Assembly: GCF_039522665.1 (NCBI RefSeq)
Contig: NZ_BAAADV010000005.1
Span: 1-61,690, forward strand
DNA: 61,690 bases
Source: Natronoarchaeum mannanilyticum
GTDB taxonomy: Archaea; Halobacteriota; Halobacteria; Halobacteriales; Natronoarchaeaceae
Direction of reading: 5' to 3'
The notes under the pieces are model-generated. The model saw only the letters and a program-made list of their open reading frames with translations, was not told the origin of the DNA and did no database searches. Positions 40,350 to 61,530 of this stretch are shown piece after piece. Both the position numbers and the translations under genes were made by a program. Numbering within the stretch: the stretch's first letter is position 1; the number at the start of each line of letters is the position of its first letter.

Positions 40350-40424
40350 GGGTTGGTGGTCTAGCCTGGTTATGACGGCTCCTTCACACGGAGCAGGTCG
40401 GCGGTTCGACTCCGCCCCAACCCA
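40350..40424 (+). tRNA. tRNA-Val (anticodon CAC), integration target
   Basis: A 75-nt cloverleaf is visible. The acceptor stem is GGGTTGG with CCAACCC and discriminator A. The anticodon arm GCTCC-TTCACAC-GGAGC gives anticodon CAC (codon GUG). The T arm is GGCGG-TTCGACT-CCGCC. No intron is seen. Partial copies of its 3' part at 58263-58372 and 61410-61439 show that its 3' end is the attachment site of two integrated elements. The gene itself stays intact. Confidence 0.97.
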
Positions 40425-41006
40425 TAAAATTTCTAACACTAACCGAAGGACACCAGACAGCCACAGCAGTCCTTATAACGTCAGATATGTCCTTGTGTGG
40501 TCCAGAAACTGACCATTCAGTCCAACAGGAACCCTGTTGGGCACGACGCCGTGGCACGATCTCACGTAAAGGAATCGGTGATCAGACAGAAAAGTCTGGC
40601 GCCGGTTGCTCGGATCATGAGCTTGACGAGAGTTGCCTGAATTGGATAGTAGATTGACCATCGGGTTCACTTAAAGCGAGGCCTCCCTTGCAACTACTCG
40701 TACAGAATTCAATATCGGTTGCTATTGAGAAGATGATTTCCACGGTGGGGGGAACGAGGACCATTCTTCCCGTTCAAGTTCACCTATAAACTGGCGTCGT
40801 GATCGGCTCATGCGGAGACACCTCAAGCACCAGAAATGGGTCTCTGGTAAGAGTCTCTCCCTCCTACGAAATTGACATGGTAACCGAAACGTGTTTTCGG
40901 TAACACTATATGAGAACTGTCTGTCAATAGTCTCTAATGATGGGAGGGCCAGAGTGAAAGTAAAACTCGATGCTTTGAGCTACTCCTTAGAAGGCTGGAT
41001 TAACTA
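40425..41006. other. Non-coding left end of element 1
   Basis: No supported gene was seen in this 582-bp stretch. It is noticeably AT-richer than the chromosome. An imperfect inverted repeat around 40880-40905 (arms GTAACCGAAA and TTTTCGGTAAC) may be a terminator or protein-binding site. A 65-codon minus-strand frame has no recognisable features. Confidence 0.4.
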
Positions 41007-46414: not shown

Positions 46415-46684
46415 ATGGCTAACCAGAAATCCAATAAGGGCAGTAGCGGACGGAAGTCCGGAGACGTTACCGACTCCGAGCTCCTCTCGTCTGAAGATAT
46501 CAAGGATCTGGTTGACGGGATGGCCAATCACTCGTCAGATGGTGGAGCAAACCCTGGAGGAACATCTCGGGAAAAATCCTCTTGCAAGTGTTGTGGTACC
46601 AGGGTTGACCCTGGAGTACACAAATGCAGTCGGTGCGTCGAGGCGGGATGTGCTTACGGTGAGACGAAATGCAAATTCCATTAG
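46415..46684 (+). CDS. Small cysteine-rich zinc-finger-like protein
   Basis: The 89-aa product has a Ser/Gly-rich acidic N-terminal half and a Cys/His-rich C-terminus: 'SCKCCGTRVDPGVHKCSRCV' then 'EAGCAYGETKCKFH'. The spacing of Cys residues suggests one or two zinc sites. TATA-like GATATCAT (about 27 nt upstream of the ATG) supports a leaderless start. A regulatory or protein-binding role in the element is possible. No family was recognised. Confidence 0.5.
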   Translation: MANQKSNKGSSGRKSGDVTDSELLSSEDIKDLVDGMANHSSDGGANPGGTSREKSSCKCCGTRVDPGVHKCSRCVEAGCAYGETKCKFH

Positions 46685-47222
46685 ATGAGGGCAAGCGTCG
46701 TTAGGTAACGCATGGAATTCAATTTCACTTGTGGACTCAATATTCAGTTATATTTTTCAGTACTCCACGGTTTTTAAAACAGAGAAAATCTTCCAGATAG
46801 AATGACTCCGCACCCCCATTTCAAAAAATACAGCGTTATTTCATCCAGATTTCAGCATTCAACTCCATGAAGGGATGTAATTGGTGTCCTCGAAGTCACT
46901 GAGTGATCATTGGTCCGATCCATACCCTGATAAGACTCTGAAGGAGATCATGTCATTATCGCTAATTGCAGCAAACGAATAATGATAAAGCACGGACGAA
47001 GAATGCTATCTCCACAACTGATCTCACCAAAAGCATTAAACTGGTCAGTACCTAACTGGGAATAGAGACGACGTGAAGAGGTTGCGTGGATAGAGTCGCT
47101 CTGTGGATGTCGCATGTACCGCCTGCCAACTGCGAGAGGAAAGCTACGACCCGATAGAATGGGATCAACCATTCTTCGGGAAGATCCTCCCCAGAGGCAG
47201 GTGGATCATGCGATGATCCACT
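46685..47222. other. Non-coding gap of about 540 bp
   Basis: The stretch is AT-rich. No frame with protein-like composition was found on either strand; the 74-codon minus-strand frame around 46948-47172 has no recognisable features. The region may hold the promoter for the following gene. Confidence 0.35.
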
Positions 47223-48023
47223 ATGTACGACGAGATACCGTTTCGTGACTGGGAAGGGCAGCAGCTAACCAAACATACTAAGACGGTCAAGAGAGAGACG
47301 ACAGGGCCGACTCTCAAGAGAGATCCCCAAGCTGCTGGGTTTCATGAGAAGGAAGTTGATAACGAAGAACAGCACTATCGGTATTCTACTATCACTTCCC
47401 CTGGTGGGGGAGACCTTCCGTTGTCAACTCCCCTCGAGAACCGTTCGTCAAACGGTCCAGATGGTGCTCCAGCGGTTCTTCGTTCGGATGCGATGGTAAC
47501 GTCTTCTGAGACAACAATTATGGCTGACAAGGTAGATAGGGCGGTTTCGAGCCAACGGCAACGACTGTACCGACGTATGTGGTACCTCCATCATGATCTG
47601 GATATCCGTCCTGGCAAATGGGATCTCGGTCGTGAGTCCTGCTATTATGCAGAGGACCACAGAGTTGGCGAGTACGATAATGATCAGGGACGGGATTACC
47701 TCTGCCTCACAGAAGCAGTTCTACAAGCCATGGAGCTCCCGGGTCCTGTTCGCGCTCGGGTGCGATCTATGATCGTGACGGAGAATCTCAATAGTCTCGG
47801 AGGAAACCGAGGACTCTATGATGGGATAATTGGATTCAGCGTTCTTTCCTTAACTGAGTTTCTTGGCCTCTCTGAGTTCGCGGAGCTCAAAGAGAGGGAG
47901 TGGTGGCCTCTAATAACAGAGATTGCTGATGACCTGGACGTTATCGGAGCAACCGGGCGCAACTTCCGTCTGCTACTCGACTATGTCGAAGAGGAGTACG
48001 GAGGTGAACGTCATGCGAACTAA
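47223..48023 (+). CDS. Hypothetical element protein upstream of the primase
   Basis: The 266-aa product has a variable, polar N-terminal region (about 1-100). Its C-terminal region is helical and more protein-like: 'VDRAVSSQRQRLYRRMWYLH', 'YLCLTEAVLQAMELPGPVRARV' and 'LYDGIIGFSVLSLTEFLGLS'. The basic 'RQRLYRRMW' stretch could contact nucleic acid. I do not recognise the family. The gene precedes the primase gene by 48 nt on the same strand, so a replication or regulatory role in the element is plausible. Confidence 0.6.
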   Translation: MYDEIPFRDWEGQQLTKHTKTVKRETTGPTLKRDPQAAGFHEKEVDNEEQHYRYSTITSPGGGDLPLSTPLENRSSNGPDGAPAVLRSDAMVTSSETTIMADKVDRAVSSQRQRLYRRMWYLHHDLDIRPGKWDLGRESCYYAEDHRVGEYDNDQGRDYLCLTEAVLQAMELPGPVRARVRSMIVTENLNSLGGNRGLYDGIIGFSVLSLTEFLGLSEFAELKEREWWPLITEIADDLDVIGATGRNFRLLLDYVEEEYGGERHAN

Positions 48024-48071: not shown

Positions 48072-49190
48072 GTGGAACTTCTCCCCCCGGAGCTCCGAAC
48101 TCGTGACCAGTGGCTGATAGCGAAGATTCTCCCTGGAGAGAAGCCTCCGTTGAAGCCAAGCGATCCTACGGCAACTGACGACGGTTTGGAGTTTGAGGAA
48201 GCCCTACAGCTGCTTAAAGAACCGGGTCGTGATGCGGAACTCAGAGCACGAGCCAACCCAGACGATCCCTTGGTATTAGGGTTCATGCTATCTACCGATG
48301 ACTCCTTGATGATGATCGACTGGGACGACGTTTGCGACCCGGCAGTCGGCGATGGGAGCGTCCCAGAAGCGGTCCAAGAGTGGGTGCAGAGATTGGGGAC
48401 ATATACGGAGGTGTCGCCGTCAGGAACTGGTTTAAAGCAGCTCCTCGAGGTAGGCGACGGAATTCCAGACCTGCTTGATGATTACAACCACAAGAACAAG
48501 CTGGGACTGGATCCAGTCGGCAATCTCGATGAAGATCCCCACCTTGAGGTGTACACAGAGAACCATTACACCACGGTAACAGGGGACCTCTTCGCACCTC
48601 CAACCGCCGATCAGCGGTTTAGTTCCCTCGATCAGGCTGATCAGACCGTATCAGACCTCCTTGAGGAGTATCTATCTCCGTCCACAGCTGGGAACCAGAA
48701 GACGGCACCTCCAAGCACAGAACAGAACTCGGCTCAAACAGCTTCTTCTTCTGGAATCACCAGTATTGGGAAGAAGTCGGCAGAACAGTGGTGCGGAGGG
48801 ACGAACAAGGAGGAAATCCCAGGAGTATGGGTTAGCGTAGAAGGGACACCTACGGTCGACCAAGTTTGGGCGACTGGATGCGCGCTTAGTGATGACTTCC
48901 GCTCTCTTTGGAATGGGGAGGTAGCAGGCTATGATACCGTTAGTGAGGCTGATAACGCATTGGTCTCGAGGCTCTGGTACTATTGTGACAATAGAGAGTT
49001 GGTCATTAAGACGTTCGAGGAGTCCGGACTCTATGGGATTCGGACTCGCCGGCCAGATCTCTCCGATTGGTCTAAATCCTATCCCAAATGGGACAAGGAC
49101 TCCTATCGACGGAATACGTTGAGCTCAACTGAGGACAATCGGTGGCCTTCCCATGACGGGCATTATCTCGATCCAAGCCAAACAAAGTAA
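48072..49190 (+). CDS. AEP-type primase-polymerase, NrS-1-like replication protein
   Basis: The 372-aa protein starts at GTG 48072 ('ELLPPELRTRDQWLIAKIL'). 'GFMLSTDDSLMMIDWDDVCD' carries an acidic DxD metal pair, 'YTEVSPSGTGLKQLLEV' and 'HLEVYTENHYTTVTGDL' are the other core motifs of archaeo-eukaryotic primases in plasmids and phages. A C-terminal segment, 'DNALVSRLWYYCDNRELVIK' with 'ESGLYGIRTRRPDLSDW', resembles the helicase-binding part of the phage NrS-1 polymerase group. A fused helicase is missing. The likely role is replication initiation of element 1 when excised. Confidence 0.7.
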   Translation: MELLPPELRTRDQWLIAKILPGEKPPLKPSDPTATDDGLEFEEALQLLKEPGRDAELRARANPDDPLVLGFMLSTDDSLMMIDWDDVCDPAVGDGSVPEAVQEWVQRLGTYTEVSPSGTGLKQLLEVGDGIPDLLDDYNHKNKLGLDPVGNLDEDPHLEVYTENHYTTVTGDLFAPPTADQRFSSLDQADQTVSDLLEEYLSPSTAGNQKTAPPSTEQNSAQTASSSGITSIGKKSAEQWCGGTNKEEIPGVWVSVEGTPTVDQVWATGCALSDDFRSLWNGEVAGYDTVSEADNALVSRLWYYCDNRELVIKTFEESGLYGIRTRRPDLSDWSKSYPKWDKDSYRRNTLSSTEDNRWPSHDGHYLDPSQTK

Positions 49191-49228
49191 TTGGGGTTTC
49201 TGGAAAAGGGCGACAGATGCCCTCTAAC

Positions 49229-49448
49229 CACTATTTGCGAATAGGGTATATTATAGTGAAACGGATGGCCAGAAGAGGAATAGTTCTTTCCAGAATTGAA
49301 CCCGCGTTTCGTCCGAAGAGTTCTAATGGAGTTTGAACTCTCAAGAGATGTCTTGCTGCAGGATCTGCAGCTCGGGGATAAGGATACTACCCATACCTCG
49401 TCTACTACTGATGGAGCGATCTACCCCCCCCACCCCCGTGGGAATCAA
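49229..49448. repeat. Direct repeat copy R1 flanking the five-paralogue operon
   Basis: This segment shares several blocks with 53895-54128 in the same orientation: CTATTTGC(G/T)AATAGGGTATA, GCGTTTCGTC, CGTCTACTACTGAT(G/A)GAGCGATC and CACCCCCGTGGGAATCAA. The first block contains short inverted repeats (CTATT/AATAG and, in this copy, CACTAT/ATAGTG). R1 begins about 40 bp after the primase stop, so it may contain an origin or a recombination site. Confidence 0.7.
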
Positions 49449-49496: not shown

Positions 49497-50342
49497 TCAA
49501 AAATTGGTCAGGTCAGAATCAGCAGAGGGGTTCTTCTCAGTCCCTGTTTGCTCTTCGTCTAACTCAACATCATTATCAGGTCCATACTCCTGCCAGACGT
49601 ATTCCCCTATGAACGACAATGTGTAACCGCCATCCACCTTAGAATATGGGTGATATTGCTTATCTCTCATCTTCCCGATTGCATCTCCGATATGTCTCCG
49701 ATCTCGATCCTCATCTTGAATCGCCTTAGCAATATCACTCGGTCCTAACGCCTCAGTCGAATCCGACAATACCTCTACAATAGGATACTGGCGGGTCCCT
49801 TCGATACTTTCCCAGAGATTAGAAATTCGATCATCTCTACCGAGCTTATCTCCAGCAACGGCCCGAATATTCTTTGAAATACTGAATAGTATCTTATTGT
49901 CTAACTCATCTGTTGGAACCTGATGTTCATCGACTAAAATCTCCTCTCGAACCTCTCCAAGAAGTTCACAAGTGACTGCCTTTATAACTGGGGGTTCAAT
50001 CCATTCCTCTCTTGCCACGAAGTCAGAGGCAATCCGTTCGATAAGCTGGCGTCGAACTTGTTCTCGACGCTTTTCTTTCTGATCGTGTTCATCAATCCGT
50101 TGCTCAAGACTGTTTCTCTCTTCGATCGCGATTGAGTAGAGCTCATCTTCCTCTTTGAGGTCATCTAACTCGTCTTCCCAATATTCAAGTTCGTCTCTCA
50201 GGTCCTCAATCTCCTCTTCCGCTGATCCAGAACTGCTGTCCGCTTGGATGACTAAGTCAACGTACTCATTTGATAATTCAGTTATAACTTCTGGGAGATC
50301 CGTAATCTCTTCTTGGCTGGTGTCGGATCTTTCCTCACTCAT
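49497..50342 (-). CDS. Five-paralogue operon, gene 5: coiled-coil plus winged-helix protein
   Basis: The 281-aa product (start MSEERSDTSQEEITD) is the last of five related genes. Residues about 40-90 form an acidic coiled coil ('EEEIEDLRDELEYWEDELDD'). The middle domain carries 'EEWIEPPVIKAVTCELLG', and 'YHPYSKVDGGYTLSFIGEYVWQEYG' is a winged-helix wing. The C-terminus is acidic and low-complexity. The start overlaps the previous stop by 8 nt, with GGGGTGAT upstream as Shine-Dalgarno. Its function is unknown; relation to its neighbours is seen in the shared motifs. Confidence 0.75.
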   Translation of the reverse strand: MSEERSDTSQEEITDLPEVITELSNEYVDLVIQADSSSGSAEEEIEDLRDELEYWEDELDDLKEEDELYSIAIEERNSLEQRIDEHDQKEKRREQVRRQLIERIASDFVAREEWIEPPVIKAVTCELLGEVREEILVDEHQVPTDELDNKILFSISKNIRAVAGDKLGRDDRISNLWESIEGTRQYPIVEVLSDSTEALGPSDIAKAIQDEDRDRRHIGDAIGKMRDKQYHPYSKVDGGYTLSFIGEYVWQEYGPDNDVELDEEQTGTEKNPSADSDLTNF

Positions 50343-51195
50343 CCGAATCACCCCTACTCTCCCCATTTAAGTCATCTAAACTGGTTTGTCCACCATCGTC
50401 ACTATCTGTCTCGTTTTGCCTCTCTTTATTAGCACCCGTGAGATCATCAAGATCCTCAGCATAGTGGCGATATAGATACTTTCCGGTAGTTGAAAGAGCG
50501 AATTCTCCGTCACCAGCGCGGTAATAGGGAATGAGGTCTTCCCAGTCGTAAATTGGACTCTCTAACCAATTTTTCGCATCTTTCCGATCTGCATCACCAC
50601 CTAGTTCTGGGACTACATCCTCTGGTGATGCGCTACCGTCCCGAGCGACAACCAGGAAGGGAATGTGGTATTTTGAATCAGCAAATCGCTCCCAACGGGA
50701 ACTCACAGTATCCGTCTGCCCGAGACGATCTTCGATGAGAACTAGAAGCGTATGCTCCATGTCAAGTTTGGTGATTTCATCGAGTTCTACCAGATCGTCT
50801 GGACTTTCAATACGGTTTTGCTGAAGAACTAGATATGCGTCTGAGCCCCCATATAGTGCGTGTGCAAGTCCTTCCAGCGTATTCGTGGAAAGCCATTCAC
50901 TATTGAACTCAAAACTGTCAACGGCAGCTTCTAGGAACTGTCTCCGGTATTCATCGGTCTGCTGAGCGGACTCGTCGAGTTCATCAAGTTCGAGCTCAAT
51001 ATCTTCGACTTTCTGATCTACGCGTTGGACGAATCTACTATCTTCACCATGCTGGTCAACGTACTGCTTTCGGCGATCCTGTAGTGCCTCCAGCTTATTA
51101 TCCAGTTCTCGCCGACGTTCTTCATCAATTTCTGATTGTACGGCGTCTAAATACTCTTGGGCAAGGGTTCCGGGGTCGTGTCGTGTTCTACTCAT
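50335..51195 (-). CDS. Five-paralogue operon, gene 4: coiled-coil plus winged-helix protein
   Basis: The 286-aa product (start MSRTRHDPGTLAQEYLDAV) has a long N-terminal coiled coil (about 15-85: 'IDEERRRELDNKLEALQDRR'). The middle domain carries 'FEFNSEWLSTNTLEGLAHALYG'. The winged-helix wing is 'IPYYRAGDGEFALSTTGKYL'. The tail ends 'DGGQTSLDDLNGESRGDSDE', with a PIP-box-like 'QTSLDDL'. The 8-nt overlap with gene 3 carries GGAGGTG, a perfect haloarchaeal Shine-Dalgarno, in the end of gene 3. This is the most divergent of the four long paralogues. Confidence 0.75.
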   Translation of the reverse strand: MSRTRHDPGTLAQEYLDAVQSEIDEERRRELDNKLEALQDRRKQYVDQHGEDSRFVQRVDQKVEDIELELDELDESAQQTDEYRRQFLEAAVDSFEFNSEWLSTNTLEGLAHALYGGSDAYLVLQQNRIESPDDLVELDEITKLDMEHTLLVLIEDRLGQTDTVSSRWERFADSKYHIPFLVVARDGSASPEDVVPELGGDADRKDAKNWLESPIYDWEDLIPYYRAGDGEFALSTTGKYLYRHYAEDLDDLTGANKERQNETDSDDGGQTSLDDLNGESRGDSDE

Positions 51196-52006
51196 TGGAA
51201 GCACCTCCGGTAGAATTCTTTAGACTATCTAAGCTAGCTTGTTTATCACTCTCCCCGGATTCAGCGTTTTCATCGTTTTCCTCTTCAGAGACGTCTCCAT
51301 ACTTCTGCCAAACGTATTCGCCAACGAGAGAAAGAGTCCAAGCGCCCGCTTCTCTGTAATAGGGGTAGTATTCAGACGAGTTCAGCACGTAGCGGAGATT
51401 AGCGCCAGGATTGTCCGTCGCATCCTTATCAAGTTGATCACTGATATCACCAGAACTTATCAACGAACCCTCCTGAGCAAGAATTTCTGTTATAGGAGCC
51501 CGTTCATTTGTACTCATCTTTTCCCATAGTTCTTCAATGATATCACTTGAATCTATTGCGTGTTTGGAGACAGCGTGAATATTCTTCGCGATAGCTACCA
51601 TCTCTTTCTTAGACAGCGTATCAGCGTCGTCTGGTAAAGAGTGATCTCCGATCAGTATCTTCTCACTCTTCTTTCCAGTAAGTGCAAGCGACAATGCAGA
51701 TATCACTGACTCATGGAGCCAGTCGTTTTGAGGGGCAAATTCTGTACTACTGCGGGTTAGTAATTCAGTACGGAATTGCTCATGGCGCTCTTCCTGAGTG
51801 GACAATTCTTCAAAGCGTTCTTTGAGTTTGTCCCGTTCACCAACTGCCATCTCATACATGGGAGTTCCCTCTTCAAACTCGTTGACTTGTTCTTGCCAAT
51901 ATTCCAGATCCTCTTCTACCTCTACCTCATCAACATCACTACCACCGAAGAGATCCAGATACGTTTCAGATAGTTCGATCAAATCGCCAGGAACCTCATC
52001 AGTCAT
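51188..52006 (-). CDS. Five-paralogue operon, gene 3: coiled-coil plus winged-helix protein
   Basis: The 272-aa product (start MTDEVPGDLIELSETYLDLF) has an N-terminal coiled coil ('VEEDLEYWQEQVNEFEEG'). The middle domain carries 'NDWLHESVISALSLALTG'. The winged-helix wing 'YYPYYREAGAWTLSLVGEYV' is very like that of gene 5. The tail 'ESDKQASLDSLKNSTGGASNE' contains the PIP-box-like 'QASLDSL'. The start overlaps gene 2 by 8 nt (ATGACTGA), with GAGGTGG upstream. A GTG three codons earlier is possible but breaks the 8-nt pattern seen at the other junctions. Confidence 0.75.
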   Translation of the reverse strand: MTDEVPGDLIELSETYLDLFGGSDVDEVEVEEDLEYWQEQVNEFEEGTPMYEMAVGERDKLKERFEELSTQEERHEQFRTELLTRSSTEFAPQNDWLHESVISALSLALTGKKSEKILIGDHSLPDDADTLSKKEMVAIAKNIHAVSKHAIDSSDIIEELWEKMSTNERAPITEILAQEGSLISSGDISDQLDKDATDNPGANLRYVLNSSEYYPYYREAGAWTLSLVGEYVWQKYGDVSEEENDENAESGESDKQASLDSLKNSTGGASNE

Positions 52007-52850
52007 CGGAACCACCTCTTTTAGTCACCGATTTTTGCCCAAGCGTTGTTTGACCATCCCCTTTCCCTCCAGTAGATTCAGACGTCTCACAATCGGTTTC
52101 GTCGGAAGTCTCTGCGTATTCCTCTGTAATGTATCTCCCAACAGTTGATAGCCCATATACTCCATTCTCACGGAAGTAGGGGTTAATCTCCATTCGAGAA
52201 GCGGTATTTTTCAACCGACCGCGAATGGTTTCACGCTTAACGTCATCATCCTCAATTCTTTCAAGCACTTCATCCGGCGTTGCACTCCCGAGACTAGCAA
52301 CGATTTTAAACGGTTCCTCTTTAGTTGTATCAGCAATTGAATCCCAGATCTCCTTCACGTCGTCTGTCTCACCTAATTTATCCATCGCGAGCTTCCGGAC
52401 GACGTCAATGAAATCGAACCGAGTGAGCTCATCAAGTTCACTTACGTCATCTTGATCAGAGACCTCTGTCTCCTCAATCAGCAGCGCTGAATCTCGCTCT
52501 CCAATGAGCGCCTGATTTAACGCTTCGATCACACGGGGATTCAACCACTCTTCAGTAAGCATGAACCGTGTGGCCCGTTCCAAGATTTGCTCTTCGAACT
52601 CCTCTGGGATCTGTTGGGCCTTCTCAAGGTCATTAACTCTCTTTTTTGCTTCACTCACCCGCTCTTCCAGTTCTTGAGTTGCTGGATCCGACTCTCCGTA
52701 TTCTTGCTTGAATCGATCATGTCTATCTTGAAGTTCCGTCAAGTGACTTTTAGCGTCTGCCAGTTCTTCTTGATCTACTTTTGTCTCTACTGCAGACAGA
52801 TATTCTTCAGACAGTTCCTTGATCGATTTCTCACTATTTTCCCCATTCAT
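51999..52850 (-). CDS. Five-paralogue operon, gene 2: coiled-coil plus winged-helix protein
   Basis: The 283-aa product (start MNGENSEKSIKELSEEYLSA) shows a coiled coil (about 10-80: 'QEELADAKSHLTELQDRHDR'). The middle domain carries 'EEWLNPRVIEALNQALIG' and 'FDFIDVVRKLAMDKLGETDD'. The wing is 'NPYFRENGVYGLSTVGRYI'. An acidic tail has 'DGQTTLGQKS', a PIP-box-like arrangement. It starts in an ATGA overlap with gene 1, preceded by GAGGTGA. N-terminal 'KELSEEYLSAVETK' is shared with gene 4 ('LAQEYLDAVQSE'). Confidence 0.75.
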   Translation of the reverse strand: MNGENSEKSIKELSEEYLSAVETKVDQEELADAKSHLTELQDRHDRFKQEYGESDPATQELEERVSEAKKRVNDLEKAQQIPEEFEEQILERATRFMLTEEWLNPRVIEALNQALIGERDSALLIEETEVSDQDDVSELDELTRFDFIDVVRKLAMDKLGETDDVKEIWDSIADTTKEEPFKIVASLGSATPDEVLERIEDDDVKRETIRGRLKNTASRMEINPYFRENGVYGLSTVGRYITEEYAETSDETDCETSESTGGKGDGQTTLGQKSVTKRGGSDD

Positions 52851-53656
52851 GCTTTCACCTCGTCTGGGAGACCCTCAGGGCGTCCATGTCGGTCAATATA
52901 CGCTTCTGTAACCCGTTCACCGGTGTCGCTTAACGAGAACTTCTGGTCAGATTTTTTCAAATAGGGGTCGTTCTCAAGAACATAATAGAGCTGACCGCGT
53001 AACTCGCCGGTCTCAACACCAATACGCTTCTCAAGTTCTTTCTTCGTGAGCGCGTTCTCAGTCTGATAGAGAACGTACAGCGTCTTTGCTAACTTCTCAT
53101 CACGGCCATTGATTTCATTTACATATTGTTCGACATCAACCATCGTGTTCGCTTTCGATCGGAGCTCATCAATTCGATTCATAGCTTGATCCATTGCTTC
53201 GTCAACGTCCGTTGTTTTGACCCGGATTGCATCGGTATCAATTACAACCCCGTCCTCGCTGAGATCTACTTGTAACACGGCTTCTATTGCGTCAATGACT
53301 GACTGAGGAATTTCAGCAGAATAAGGAAATTCAACCACGTCATCGCTCACATTCACCGTTTCGTTCAGTGGGAATTGGACCTCAACTAGGAGTTCCTGGA
53401 GTTCCTCACGCGTAGTTTCTAACGCATCTTTGAGCTCCTCCAATTCATCTCTCAGTTCGTCGATCTCCTGAGTTTTGCTAGACTTCTGTTCCAAACCGCC
53501 CACATCTGAGAAAAACTCTCGAGCCTTCTCTTCAGTTTCTTCAGAATCTGCTCCGAACACGTCGGTCTGGAGCTCGCTCAGATTCTCCTGCTTTTCTCGC
53601 AGCTTCTCCTGCTGTGTGATGAACTTGTTTGCCTTTTCCTCAAGCTTAGATCTCAT
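52847..53656 (-). CDS. Five-paralogue operon, gene 1: divergent coiled-coil plus winged-helix protein
   Basis: The 269-aa product opens the operon. It has two coiled-coil stretches (about 1-30 and 65-95, 'TQEIDELRDELEELKDALE'). A beta-rich middle resembles the other members only in outline ('AEIPQSVIDAIEAVLQVD'). A C-terminal winged helix reads 'KTLYVLYQTENALTKKELEK' and 'DPYLKKSDQKFSLSDTGERV'. It lacks the acidic PIP-like tail. A strong TATA box (TATATAAAATT, about 26 nt upstream) shows a leaderless start at ATG 53656. It may be the core subunit or a regulator of the other four. Confidence 0.72.
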   Translation of the reverse strand: MRSKLEEKANKFITQQEKLREKQENLSELQTDVFGADSEETEEKAREFFSDVGGLEQKSSKTQEIDELRDELEELKDALETTREELQELLVEVQFPLNETVNVSDDVVEFPYSAEIPQSVIDAIEAVLQVDLSEDGVVIDTDAIRVKTTDVDEAMDQAMNRIDELRSKANTMVDVEQYVNEINGRDEKLAKTLYVLYQTENALTKKELEKRIGVETGELRGQLYYVLENDPYLKKSDQKFSLSDTGERVTEAYIDRHGRPEGLPDEVKA

Positions 53657-53676
53657 ACAACCGTGTACTGTGCCAC

Positions 53677-53710
53677 TCTATATAAAATTATGCTATTAGA
53701 GTTAGCTCTA
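53677..53710 (-). promoter_or_regulatory. Promoter of the five-paralogue operon with an inverted repeat
   Basis: A TATA box (TATATAAAATT read on the plus strand, centre about 53682) lies 26 nt before ATG 53656. Directly upstream is the inverted repeat TAGAG-TTAG-CTCTA at 53697-53710, overlapping the BRE region. This could be an operator for autogenous or element-encoded control. Confidence 0.55.
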
Positions 53711-53894
53711 TGCGGTGGTGGTGCATGTTATGAGGGCATTTGATTATGCGTGCCCAGGGTGCCTCGTGAAAAGTAAGGCGGAGATCTGTCTGACCCTCCA
53801 GTGACACGGCTCTAATTACTGTAATCGGCGCTAATTCGGCCGGTTGAGACTAGGACGATATTCGTTTCGAGGATGGCGATACAGGTCCTGTACC

Positions 53895-54128
53895 CTCTAT
53901 TTGCTAATAGGGTATACTATAGTGCAGAGGAATGCCACAAAGGCATCGTTCATGCTAGAACTAAACCAGCGTTTCGTCTGAGGAGTTCTGATTGAGATTG
54001 AACTTTGCTGATCTTCTCATTCCTATTAATGAGTTACTGAGGAATCACCAGATGGCGATCAGTATGCTGACTCCCCTTCGTCTACTACTGATAGAGCGAT
54101 CGAATTCCCCCACCCCCGTGGGAATCAA
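53895..54128. repeat. Direct repeat copy R2 flanking the five-paralogue operon
   Basis: The second copy of the repeat at 49229-49448, displaced by 4.67-4.68 kb and about 14 bp longer. The best-conserved pieces are the AT-rich CTATTTGC(T)AATAGGGTATA block and the CACCCCCGTGGGAATCAA block. Between R1 and R2 lies only the five-gene operon, so recombination between them would remove exactly that cassette. The right flank (54129-54328) holds the promoter region of the next gene. Confidence 0.7.
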
Positions 54129-55274: not shown

Positions 55275-56246
55275 TTACAAACGTTGGCCACTATCAATTT
55301 CCCACTGTGTTCCCATGATATTGTCCTCAGCATACTTCCCGCTCAATAATTTCAACAACTTCCAAGTATGGACATACTCAGCAACATCCAGTTCAATTTC
55401 ACCGTTCTGGCGAACATAGCTTAGCGAGAAACGCTCGTTGAGCTCGTAGTTTTTAATCATCGTTTCAATTTGAGAGGGCGTAGCTTGCTGGTGGATCTCG
55501 GCGTCATAAATCTCGTACATCCCCCGTAACATATTGATGTGACCTAATAGCCAATTTGTGGTCTTTTCTTTATCTGCAAATCGAATTCCGGCATCTTCGA
55601 AACCGTCGATTGCTTCTTTTGCCCGCTTCTCATACTCCTCCCGCATATTGAACATGCTCTCGAAGCTCTTTGGGCTGATAACGAATAGCCAGCCGTCATA
55701 ATAAACAGCGTTGACACCGGGTTTGATCACGAGCATATCTCCTTTGAACCGCTCGTATTCTTTTCCGCTGTATTGAAGTGATAGCTTTTTTGTAGTGTCA
55801 ACTAATTCGACTCCGCTATATGACTGAACCCCAGCTAGGATTTTCCCATCCGGTTCGCTGATACGGATAAGTTGGAAATCTGGCTTCGGATCTTCGGTAT
55901 ATGTTGTGGAACCATGGTGGTCTCTCGAAACCAAAATCTGGAACAATTCAGAGTTCGGGAGATCACTTACTGGTGCACATTGAATGATTGATTCTTCTGA
56001 AATGGTATTCGCCACATCAAGAGGACGAGTTCGAGTGTCGCCTTCTCTAAGATTGTCGATGTGGGTCGTCAGATCCTGAGCGAAGTTATCCGCAATTTCT
56101 TGTTGGACTGTTTTTCCAATTGGAAGTTTCCCGACTTGTGGGGAACCATTTCTTTCACGGACAAGGAGGAACTCAGCTTCTGTATTCCCTTCGGCGTATT
56201 CGCGGGCCTCTTTGAGTTTCTCGATCGGATTCAGGTTGAGCGACAT
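55275..56246 (-). CDS. kwaB: Kiwa defence protein KwaB-like (DUF4868)
   Basis: The 323-aa soluble protein resembles DUF4868/KwaB. Features are 'VNAVYYDGWLFVISPKSFES' (residues 178-197), an 'EEYEKRAKEAIDGFED' helix and a helical C-terminus. KwaB is the cytoplasmic effector-like partner in the Kiwa anti-phage system and works with the membrane protein KwaA. The kwaA-like gene ends 1 nt upstream, so the two are an operon. Assignment rests on my recollection of the family pattern and on the gene pair. A profile search would settle it. Confidence 0.65.
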   Translation of the reverse strand: MSLNLNPIEKLKEAREYAEGNTEAEFLLVRERNGSPQVGKLPIGKTVQQEIADNFAQDLTTHIDNLREGDTRTRPLDVANTISEESIIQCAPVSDLPNSELFQILVSRDHHGSTTYTEDPKPDFQLIRISEPDGKILAGVQSYSGVELVDTTKKLSLQYSGKEYERFKGDMLVIKPGVNAVYYDGWLFVISPKSFESMFNMREEYEKRAKEAIDGFEDAGIRFADKEKTTNWLLGHINMLRGMYEIYDAEIHQQATPSQIETMIKNYELNERFSLSYVRQNGEIELDVAEYVHTWKLLKLLSGKYAEDNIMGTQWEIDSGQRL

Positions 56247-56247
56247 G

Positions 56248-56850
56248 TTATGGTGCTAACGCTGTCGTAGTGTCGAGTGGAACAACTTCGAGTTTGTCTC
56301 TGGCGTCTGTACTGTCTTTTGACTCAGGTGTCATTACTTTTTCCTCTATTGACCCATCAGAGATTACTAAGATAACCCTCTCATCGCTGGTGAGCTCATA
56401 TACTTGGTACCCCCGAAGACCAAGCATTGGATTAACATGGAGGTGTCCAGAGTTGATTTGGAGGACCCCTAGAATGCAGAAAAACACGAGGAATATTCCG
56501 ATATCAAGTGGTTGGGTGAAGTCAAGCCCCGCAAATACGAAGACATACACCAGTAGGTAAGTTGACAACAATTCGTTTCGTTTTTGGTATTTATCAACCG
56601 AACGTTGAGTCGTTGCTCGGTCGGAATGGACGCCGATGATACGATATACTAGGCTCGTCAATACAATACAAAGAATGAGAACGACTGCAGTCAGGTAGGA
56701 GAGTCCAAGGTGAATTTCTAAGCGATATAGATAATAGGGATCAATTAGCATGGGTCCCATATCCCAGAATTTCAATCCCATAATGATGAACAAGGGAACA
56801 TAGGAACTGAGGAAGAGGATGAGTTTGATTGGTCGTCGAAACTCTCGCAT
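56248..56850 (-). CDS. kwaA: Kiwa defence membrane protein KwaA-like
   Basis: The 200-aa protein has four membrane segments (about 8-27, 46-69, 94-110, 114-131). A cytoplasmic C-terminal domain begins 'LGLRGYQVYELTSDERVILV'. The four-TM layout with a short soluble tail, and its position one nucleotide before the DUF4868-like gene, fit KwaA. KwaA is described as the membrane sensor of phage infection in the bacterial system; how it works in archaea is unknown. The gene lies next to the integrase end of element 1. Confidence 0.62.
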   Translation of the reverse strand: MREFRRPIKLILFLSSYVPLFIIMGLKFWDMGPMLIDPYYLYRLEIHLGLSYLTAVVLILCIVLTSLVYRIIGVHSDRATTQRSVDKYQKRNELLSTYLLVYVFVFAGLDFTQPLDIGIFLVFFCILGVLQINSGHLHVNPMLGLRGYQVYELTSDERVILVISDGSIEEKVMTPESKDSTDARDKLEVVPLDTTTALAP

Positions 56851-57143: not shown

Positions 57144-58166
57144 TTAGAATCTGAGATCGTCAATATATTCCTGGCGAGTAGTACGTGCCATCTCTTTAGA
57201 ACGTACGTCGTAGTGCTCAGTGAGTGTATCCACAGATACTGAGGCTCTCTCACTGACGATCTCCTTCGGGATACCCTGATCAAGATGCGCAGTTATAGCT
57301 GAGCGTCGAATAGCGTGTGGAGAAACGGCTGATGGACATCCACCAGCCTTGTTGTGAGAGAGGAATTCACAGGTCTTGGGATCCTTCCCATGTGGACAGT
57401 CATCCATCAGACAGGGCTGTGTAGTCCTATAAACAGACACACGAATCTTCGTCTTCGAGGCACGTCCGTTTCTCGTCGTAAGTAGTGGAGTCCGCTCATA
57501 CTCATCTACTACGTCCGGACGTTGGTGCTGAACGTAATCATCAACAGCTGAGGCGAGCTCCGGGTCAGACACACTCACATTTCGCTCGCCCTCTGAGCCA
57601 AGTTTGAGGGGAGTATCTGTCTCTGGTCTATGGCGTACGGCGAGATACATCGTCCCGTCGTCGGCGTACTCGATGTCGTCGACATCCAGCGCACGAGCAC
57701 TCCCCATTCGCATTGCCGTGTGCCAGAAAATACCAAATAAAATGTGTTGAAACGAGCCGTACTCGAACTTCTGGAGGTATGATTTGATCCGCTTCGCGCG
57801 CTTGAACGAGAGTGCATCGTCTCGACGTCGGTCGTCCTTGTTCACGTCGGGAATCCGTATGAGCTCGTGTAGCGCTTCCTCGGTGTAGCCAACGATACCA
57901 CACCATCGTATGAACTGGCGGAAGCTTCTCATGTGCATCTGGATAGTGATCGGTGCTAACCCTGCGTTCACACGGGCCAACTTCCACCGTTCGCAGTCAT
58001 GGCCATCCAATTCTCTCATATCCTCAATCCCTGCATCCTCGGCCCACAATCGGAACTGCTTCAAACGATATCGTAGGTTCTGGAGCGTTGATTCGGATAT
58101 TTCATGGGTGCGCGATTCCAGATACTCTTCTATCGCTGTCTCGGGCGTAACTTGTTCGTCATGCAT
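57144..58166 (-). CDS. Tyrosine recombinase/integrase of element 1
   Basis: The 340-aa integrase begins MHDEQVTPETAIEEYLES. A SAM-like N-terminal core-binding domain (residues 1-105) is followed by the catalytic domain with Arg153 ('TAMRMGSARAL'), His284-x-x-Arg287 ('SPHAIRRSAIT') and the nucleophile Tyr319 ('LTEHYDVRS'). Between Arg I and the HxxR box is a Cys-rich insert ('CLMDDCPHG...CEF...GGCP'), typical of haloarchaeal integrases. ATG 58166 is preferred because longer frames run into the tRNA-like att sequence. The gene starts about 100 bp from the att copy it is expected to use. Confidence 0.9.
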   Translation of the reverse strand: MHDEQVTPETAIEEYLESRTHEISESTLQNLRYRLKQFRLWAEDAGIEDMRELDGHDCERWKLARVNAGLAPITIQMHMRSFRQFIRWCGIVGYTEEALHELIRIPDVNKDDRRRDDALSFKRAKRIKSYLQKFEYGSFQHILFGIFWHTAMRMGSARALDVDDIEYADDGTMYLAVRHRPETDTPLKLGSEGERNVSVSDPELASAVDDYVQHQRPDVVDEYERTPLLTTRNGRASKTKIRVSVYRTTQPCLMDDCPHGKDPKTCEFLSHNKAGGCPSAVSPHAIRRSAITAHLDQGIPKEIVSERASVSVDTLTEHYDVRSKEMARTTRQEYIDDLRF

Positions 58167-58262
58167 AGTTGTGGCCGAGATCGTGCCATCAAGCGGAGGC
58201 CCAATAGGAATCTGCTCAGATAGTGATGTTTCTGGTGGTACGCCTTTCTTGTCTGACGGCAC

Positions 58263-58372
58263 CTCCTTCACACGGAGCAGTCGGCGTTCTCGCGAGCGGA
58301 GCGAGCGAGAGGCAGAGAGTCGCGCGCAGCAACGCGAGCACGTCTCTCGCGCGTCGACTCCGCCCCAACCCA
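58263..58372. repeat. Disrupted attachment-site copy of tRNA-Val
   Basis: CTCCTTCACACGGAGCAG at 58263-58280 repeats the anticodon arm of tRNA-Val. 'TCGGCG' follows, and the 19-bp tRNA 3' end TCGACTCCGCCCCAACCCA is at 58354-58372. Between them lie about 67 bp of GC-rich sequence (58287-58353) beginning with TCGCGAG and ending in CTCTCGCGCG. This copy is the right boundary of element 1 and the left boundary of element 2, later interrupted. Confidence 0.8.
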
Positions 58373-58677
58373 CTCGCTCTCCTGCTATTGATGAAGTACC
58401 AAACCGCCAGAGGGCGGTATATTGGTCCTGTACCATCGAACAATCCAGTGGGTGAACCGATGGTTGTGTCTTTTCGCCGGAAGACATCAGGGTATCTTTA
58501 GGGATCTGTGATGGAGTAATACAGCTTATTCACACAGCATCACCAGCACTCAATGCACTTGAACAGCCTGTTGAAATCTCATCGTCAATATAGTAGTAAA
58601 GCAATTGGCAATCGTGGATGCAAGATGTGATTCTTAGCTGGATTATTTATGCCTACCACTACAAGAGACTCGACAGA

Positions 58678-60282: not shown

Positions 60283-61284
60283 CTACTTTTTCAGTTCAAA
60301 TTGCTCACGTCGTAGCTCGCGCTTTTCGCCCTTTGTACGTGCATCGTAGTGCTTGTCCAGTGTTTTCGGACTCACATTCATCCGATCCCCAATCAGCTCT
60401 TTCCGATGGCCCTCGTTCAGCCAATTAGTGATCGCAGCTCGTCGAAGCGAGTGGGGTGACACAGACGACGGACACCGTTGAGCGTATTTATAGGAGTTCG
60501 CCTCACAGTCGGGAATCGTCCGTCCATGCGGACAGTCGCCTGTATAGTGACATGGACGAGTTAACCCAGCAATTTGCTGCCGGAGCGTCGAACGAGCTGG
60601 GCGTCCCTGAGAAGTAGTTAACAGAGGCTTGCGTCCGTGGTCATCGGTCACATTGTGCCGATGCATCTCAAAGTAGTCGTCCAAGATTTCACAGACCCAA
60701 GTGTGGAGATTCACTTCTCGATTTGCCTCGACCTTGTTCTTGAGCGGTGTACCTGATTCTGGGCGATGCACGACCTCAATGTAGTGATCCTCTGGATAGT
60801 AATCGTCAAGATCGAGTGATCGGACGGTTCCGATTCGGAAGCCCGTCGTCCACAGAACGGCAAAGAGCGCATGACTGCGCGTTCCGTACTCGAACTTGTC
60901 TAAGTAATTCAGAATCTTCTCCGCAGTCTCCTCGGTGATCATTTCATCGCGCGCATCGTCGTCGGGATCGGGGATCATCATCCCCTCGGCAAGTCCCTCA
61001 TCAACGAGTTCCATCGACTGTAACCACCGGACGAACACGCGGATGGTACAGAGGTTTCCGTATAGCGTAACCTCATTGATGCCCTGCTCTCGACGATATA
61101 GCTTGAACTCGTGGAGGTACATTCCATCGAGTTCCGACACAGCCTCAATGTCTACTTCTTCTGTCCACTCTACGAACGCATTGAGCGTGTATTTGTGATT
61201 GTGATAGGTCGATTCAGCGATCTCGGGCTTCCGTTCTTTCAGGTAGCGATCTGCCGCGCCTTGAGGTGAGATATTCCGCGTCAT
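60283..61284 (-). CDS. Tyrosine recombinase/integrase of element 2
   Basis: The 333-aa product starts MTRNISPQGAADRYLKERKP. The catalytic residues are Arg150 ('TTGFRIGTVRSLDL'), His278-x-x-Arg281 ('SPHSLRRAAIT') and Tyr313 ('LDKHYDARTK'). The Cys-rich 'CHYTGDCPHG...CEANSYKYAQRCP' insert parallels that of the first integrase, so the two are related but distinct. The gene starts about 125 bp from the att copy at 61410-61439, the same layout as element 1. Confidence 0.9.
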   Translation of the reverse strand: MTRNISPQGAADRYLKERKPEIAESTYHNHKYTLNAFVEWTEEVDIEAVSELDGMYLHEFKLYRREQGINEVTLYGNLCTIRVFVRWLQSMELVDEGLAEGMMIPDPDDDARDEMITEETAEKILNYLDKFEYGTRSHALFAVLWTTGFRIGTVRSLDLDDYYPEDHYIEVVHRPESGTPLKNKVEANREVNLHTWVCEILDDYFEMHRHNVTDDHGRKPLLTTSQGRPARSTLRQQIAGLTRPCHYTGDCPHGRTIPDCEANSYKYAQRCPSSVSPHSLRRAAITNWLNEGHRKELIGDRMNVSPKTLDKHYDARTKGEKRELRREQFELKK

Positions 61285-61409: not shown

Positions 61410-61439
61410 GGTCGGCGCGTTCGACTCCGCCCCAACCCA
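61410..61439. repeat. Third attachment-site copy (right end of element 2)
   Basis: GGTCGGCG, then an extra C, then GTTCGACTCCGCCCCAACCCA repeats the variable-loop-to-3'-end part of tRNA-Val, with one inserted base. The last 19 bp (61421-61439) are identical to the tRNA end. This marks the right boundary of element 2. Confidence 0.8.
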
Positions 61440-61530
61440 TTTCTGACGACACCTCCACTGCAAGCGATAGCGAGCGGTCCGTGTTAACCTGACAAAATTT
61501 ATTTGTATATTGTGTCCATTTCTAGTAGCA

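Follow-up and report, generated by a model that had tools for sequence, protein, structure and literature searches.

Rok and TrmBL2 are examples of DNA-binding proteins in which a coiled-coil or otherwise oligomerising part is joined to a winged helix. Rok and the silencers of the H-NS type, as well as TrmBL2, are often found on foreign DNA or act on it, and they are encoded by single genes whose products form homo-oligomers. At plasmid partition loci, oligomeric DNA-binding proteins occur together with iterons that overlap the promoter of the operon. RdfS, a single wHTH protein that controls excision and transfer of a mobile element, oligomerises on DNA (PMC11963761). The PbeABCD and CxC ABC-ATPase systems include an ABC-ATPase, PbeC (PMC10853773), and DndE-like (PbeD) proteins (PMC6459918, PMC10853773).

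The operon compared here with these systems occupies positions 49497-53656 of the window (the whole stretch of Natronoarchaeum mannanilyticum DNA that was analysed, 61,690 nucleotides). A sequence-only reading had described five tightly coupled minus-strand genes, with genes 2-5 as paralogues and gene 1 divergent, and these points were borne out. From the ORF list, the genes are gene 1 (B, 52847..53656, 269 aa), gene 2 (A2, type I, 51999..52850, 283 aa), gene 3 (A3, type II, 51188..52006, 272 aa, with a hairpin tip four residues shorter), gene 4 (A4, type I, 50335..51195, 286 aa) and gene 5 (A5, type II, 49497..50342, 281 aa), all on the minus strand, neighbouring frames overlapping by 4-8 bp. 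A2-A5 match one another in phmmer at E 1e-13 to 1e-44, whereas B shows no pairwise match to any of them; B and A can be aligned end to end only at the profile-profile level, where the alignment is colinear across coil, middle domain and wHTH (97.8 %, E 7e-13). Because five other genomes carry orthologous operons, and because each of genes 1-4 has its own positional orthologue in one of these, G073 (E 1e-95 or better), the arrangement in the window is more than chance. With net charges of -32 to -56 the proteins are strongly acidic, as is usual in haloarchaea, so that surface charge is uninformative in this case.

The architecture proposed earlier for all five proteins also stood, and it can now be specified: a coiled-coil hairpin is followed by a small alpha-beta domain and, at the C-terminus, by a winged helix, with the same order of parts in the AlphaFold model of B. 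The models of A and B, calculated from alignments of the window proteins with those of related loci, are confident (mean pLDDT 83 and 82, respectively) and place the hairpin before a small domain (helix, two strands, helix) and one winged helix. In B, the hairpin covers residues 2-90, the alpha-beta middle domain 102-146, a long helix 151-185 and the winged helix 187-257, with an additional strand pair ahead of the middle helix; in A2, the hairpin (27-93), the middle domain (94-172) and the winged helix (176-247) are followed by an acidic tail with the sequence QTTL, which is disordered in the A model. A Q-x-[ST]-[LF] motif (QTTL, QASL, QATL) recurs in most of the otherwise variable acidic tails of the A family at all loci, although the Q is missing in the last gene; it resembles the start of a PCNA-binding box without the aromatic pair.

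The operon had been called undescribed, and indeed neither A nor B is represented by any family in Pfam, NCBIfam, PHROG, PADLOC or PDB. Sequence searches of these libraries returned similarity at the coiled-coil level only, apart from a sub-threshold match of DUF7347 across the winged helix of B. No enzymatic domain was found in A or B in any library searched, and no nuclease, NADase, membrane or NTPase domain in the operon proteins; an Rfam search returned tRNA only. Searches with the models against PDB and viral structures gave no match at E <= 0.001 (nothing better than E 0.68 for A against PDB with Foldseek); the top matches are partial and mostly to winged-helix proteins, the best supported in PDB being winged-helix DNA-binding proteins, and AspA is among the weak wHTH matches. 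We thus define two protein families, A and B, both absent from the libraries searched. Two other identities were considered and rejected: a PHROG 'integrase', whose matches (E 1.6e-4 at best, model positions 420-603 of 651) lie mostly in the A/B coil, and a gas-vesicle protein, an assignment that the earlier reading had named as one that would count against it and for which the best hit, a GvpC repeat at E 0.19, lies below the cut-off.

Among the genomes searched, related operons were found in Halobacteriales only. A scan of about 85,000 genomes for B, which depends on seed matches and thus gives lower bounds, found three loci, in Halobacterium sp. TGN-42-S1 and two Halobacteriales MAGs. Within the order, 392 genomes searched with profiles added G259 and G265, while G132 and G297 yielded fragments or relatives of B; profile searches of 345 genomes of the phylum yielded no further convincing case. 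No relatives of A or B were found in plasmids, phages and viral contigs, in searches that were single-query or seed-pattern and may therefore miss distant relatives; a scan of genome contigs with gene 2 alone as query gave no matches. The operon is rare, its distribution is patchy, and it has spread horizontally. The number of subunits varies from 2 to 5 per operon, the gene order being B-I-II-I-II in the window, G259 and G265, B-I-II-I in G073, B-I-II in G008 and B-I in G386. Types I and II, which differ by four extra residues at the hairpin tip in type I, alternate in gene order, and the tree groups the type II members together at 0.99 support; gene 2 of G008 is called type I by the tip indel, as its support in the tree is low. 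The operon appears to grow by whole I-II pairs.

When orthologue and paralogue identity were compared in 17-column windows, the largest gap was found at the recognition helix (0.77 vs 0.11; about residues 204-222 of A2) and a second such gap at the hairpin tip (0.78 vs 0.17; A2 residues 46-66). Since these two candidate specificity regions have diverged among paralogues and are conserved among orthologues, each A/B subunit appears to have a separate DNA site and a separate partner, which fits the earlier suggestion of a position or DNA preference peculiar to each copy.

The promoter of the operon carries an array of GCA boxes (53671..53713, minus strand) located at -57, -37 and -17 from the start codon of gene 1, with a pitch of 20 bp, and overlapping a TATA-like stretch. 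The array was first noticed by reading six promoters and tested afterwards: GCA occurs at -17, -37 and -57 (+-1) from the B start codon in all six loci, and near -77 as well in several; the B start codon of G008 had been picked from an alignment before the pattern was noticed. When all 3-mers and periods of 8-40 were compared, GCA at 19-20 bp proved to be the best repeat, present in 5/5 loci (G265 was left out as a near-duplicate of G259) compared with at most 3/5 in 200 dinucleotide shuffles, a test that counts the loci as independent, while the promoters of the window, G073 and G259 share some ancestry (identity of 0.40-0.48 between boxes). For distant pairs of loci the identity of the spacers between boxes is near chance (0.10-0.36). 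Among 560 ORFs of the fetched loci, the triple precedes three B genes and none of 557 control ORFs, the remaining B starts falling inside longer ORFs and hence going uncounted. A seventh locus, that of G132, was looked at later and has boxes at -58, -38 and -17; as its B resembles that of G386, it is a partly independent check. The search gave no other array with an evident target gene; the window holds one further strict triple with a pitch of about 20 bp (46671-46713, plus strand), upstream of 47223-48023, which may be due to chance. The array could be the site of some other regulator. It makes the DNA target directly testable.

In the window, the operon lies in a 21-kb island (40404-61440) with a GC content of 0.40-0.56, compared with about 0.70 in the adjoining host DNA. 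The island is bounded by the 22-bp 3' end of tRNA-Val (40404..40425, plus strand) on the left and an exact copy of it (61419..61440, plus strand) on the right, and the earlier description of a defence-rich integrated element is upheld by the presence of Kiwa (KwaA and KwaB), a type IIG R-M enzyme and two integrases between these repeats. The Kiwa pair is complete (KwaB, 55275-56246; KwaA, 56248-56850). The integrase genes are at 57144-58487 and 60283-61284, the first containing a 19/22 copy of the tRNA-Val repeat (58352-58373), as in SSV-type integrases. Adjoining the operon, 48072-49190 encodes a 372-aa protein weakly similar to the helix-bundle domain of NrS-1 polymerase, of which a fuller relative is encoded near the operon in G259 (L047 8975-10459). 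The operon itself is flanked by a direct repeat (49209..49448 downstream and 53875..54128 upstream, 71 % between copies with gaps), which contains no long open frame and has no copy in six other genomes searched.

A clean insertion of the operon is seen in G386, where it entered a chromosomal YkgJ-like gene together with a foreign 3' end of such a gene. Nine relatives of the genus have this site uninterrupted, and their DNA matches the 5' part of the gene, its displaced 3' end and the sequence downstream; in 8/9 of the comparisons the upstream 3' copy is less similar than the displaced one. The window operon also has a direct repeat on either side, as described above, and the distance from repeat to gene 1 is 216 bp in G386 and 218 bp in the window. 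A 7.2-kb block common to G259 and G265 holds, besides the operon, a helicase gene and a piece of the TFB-like gene that lies downstream; the helicase, HTH-XPB-like, is divergent from the operon (L047 12891-14678 and L049 13313-15100, respectively). In G073 (L014 1148-17788), an Hma-like set has its DUF499 and DUF1156 genes on either side of the operon and a SoFic gene, and a GmrSD enzyme (HEC-05) is found beyond. The GC content of the operon (0.46-0.53) is below that of the surrounding DNA in 4/5 loci and equal to it in G073. Neighbours differ between unrelated loci, and no constant partner gene was found.

The N-terminal half of the proteins is also found elsewhere. The coil and middle domain of A, without the winged helix, form single proteins encoded upstream of PilB3-type ATPases in G042, G243 and G339 (L054 2833-3915, L053 8996-9907 and L028 1381-1956), another small gene preceding them in G243 and G339. 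The same half is located at the C-terminus of HalX response regulators in G031, G042 and G353 and stands alone in G061, as does the B half in G297. Matches in G031 and G042 (C69) could be taken for chance coiled-coil similarity; this was rejected, as each proved to be an N-half domain in fusion with a HalX regulator. Since these halves occur alone, the operon proteins can be regarded as haloarchaeal halves joined to a DNA-binding head.

The reading that we favour, to which we give an even chance, is that the product of the A/B operon, itself a mobile cassette, is a hetero-oligomeric DNA-binding complex that regulates its own expression and that coats or bridges selected DNA and represses it. 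The coiled-coil hairpins would join B to A subunits of types I and II in alternation, the hairpin tips setting which subunits pair, and the C-terminal winged helices would lie side by side on one face of the DNA, at GCA-centred sites 20 bp, or two helical turns, apart. As the array extends across the TATA region of the operon's own promoter, the complex should limit its own expression. Coating or bridging would, most likely, repress transcription or replication from the bound DNA, in the manner of oligomeric wHTH silencers and regulators (Rok, TrmBL2, RdfS) and not of an enzyme. If the complex does silence or block foreign DNA, this would be an enzyme-free form of mutual control between haloarchaea and their elements, and a rare case in which the paralogues of a predicted hetero-oligomer would reveal both its partner specificity and its DNA specificity. 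A wider proposal, which we regard as unlikely, is that of a new kind of haloarchaeal mobile cassette, a modular nucleoprotein assembled from one B and a series of I-II pairs. Every subunit would have a DNA site of its own and a fixed neighbour, and the whole would recognise foreign DNA and shut it down with no enzyme involved.

Of the other explanations, a new antiviral defence, in which the predicted hetero-oligomer would stop the virus by recognising or trapping the invading DNA or by controlling an effector encoded nearby, is possible if doubtful. The neighbourhoods make it plausible, with Kiwa and the type IIG R-M enzyme beside the operon in the window, the XPB-like helicase in G259 and G265, and the Hma-like set of G073 (DUF499, DUF1156 methylase, SNF2 helicase) with SoFic and GmrSD, and the patchy horizontal spread agrees with it; it is ranked second, as no constant partner or effector accompanies the operon. 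Moreover, defence islands gather any cargo, G386 has only B and one A in an ordinary chromosome, nuclease, NADase, membrane and NTPase domains are lacking, and the PADLOC matches amount to coiled-coil or generic helicase similarity, no PADLOC system being matched.

The promoter-overlapping repeats could also be understood as centromere-like iterons bound by the winged-helix proteins, the operon then serving partition or maintenance of the element. The candidate oligomeric DNA-binding proteins and AspA among the weak wHTH matches would suit this, yet the operon encodes no ParA-, ParM- or TubZ-like motor, only 3-4 boxes are present and the G386 operon lies in a chromosome without a replicon, which makes partition distinctly improbable. 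A role as signalling or surface-structure regulator, suggested by the A halves near PilB3-type ATPases and on HalX regulators in three genomes each, is very improbable, given that those proteins are chromosomal and lack the winged helix and that the operon itself was not seen beside pilus or receiver genes. Hardly probable at all is a toxin-antitoxin-like addiction module with one subunit harmful alone: overlapping genes, promoter array, mobility and small size would be expected of a tightly coupled autoregulated module of this kind, but all subunits share one architecture with no catalytic domain, and they number 2 to 5, unlike toxin-antitoxin pairs.

Among described systems, the proposed DNA-binding complex would work most like oligomeric winged-helix silencers or regulators. 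Gene 1 matches PbeC weakly in PADLOC (24 bits, PbeC positions 202-401 of 644), in the central part, where PbeC is expected to have its coiled coil, and the SF2 helicase beside the operon in G259 and G265 has similarity to PbeA; unlike the PbeABCD and CxC systems, the A/B operon has no ABC-ATPase, DndE or HKD nuclease. A PbeC/PbeA identity was rejected, PbeC being an ABC-ATPase with a coiled coil and the A/B proteins (269-286 aa) having no ATPase domain. The sequence-only reading had likened the proteins to kleisin/Kite-like parts of SMC complexes while noting that no ATPase subunit is present. The latter holds, as there is none in or beside the operon in the window and only the unrelated SF2 helicase at two other loci. 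The former is not supported: Kite and kleisin subunits (ScpB, MukE, Nse1/Nse3) share winged helices with A/B, and the best fold match, though not a significant one (E 0.68), is to an Nse1-Nse3-Nse4 chain, but these subunits have tandem winged helices, an SMC ATPase and a kleisin, whereas each A/B model has a single winged helix, the SMC-related matches are sub-significant and local (Nse1 complexes, E 0.68-1.7), and the A/B loci have neither kleisin nor nearby SMC ATPase. The HalX regulators and PilB3-adjacent small proteins share with A a homologous coil and 'WL..VL.ALN..LF' domain and differ in being single chromosomal genes without a winged helix. RdfS is, like the A/B proteins, a wHTH protein of a mobile element; it oligomerises on DNA, as A/B are predicted to do, and is a single controller of excision and transfer (PMC11963761), while the A/B operon encodes several subunits. 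A and B have no significant Pfam, NCBIfam or PDB sequence match that would indicate homology to Rok or TrmBL2. Like these two, they are predicted to combine a winged helix with a coiled coil (a hairpin in the models), and TrmBL2 is a weak fold match (5bpi); unlike them, they come as 2-5 paralogues per operon and possess a separate alpha-beta middle domain.
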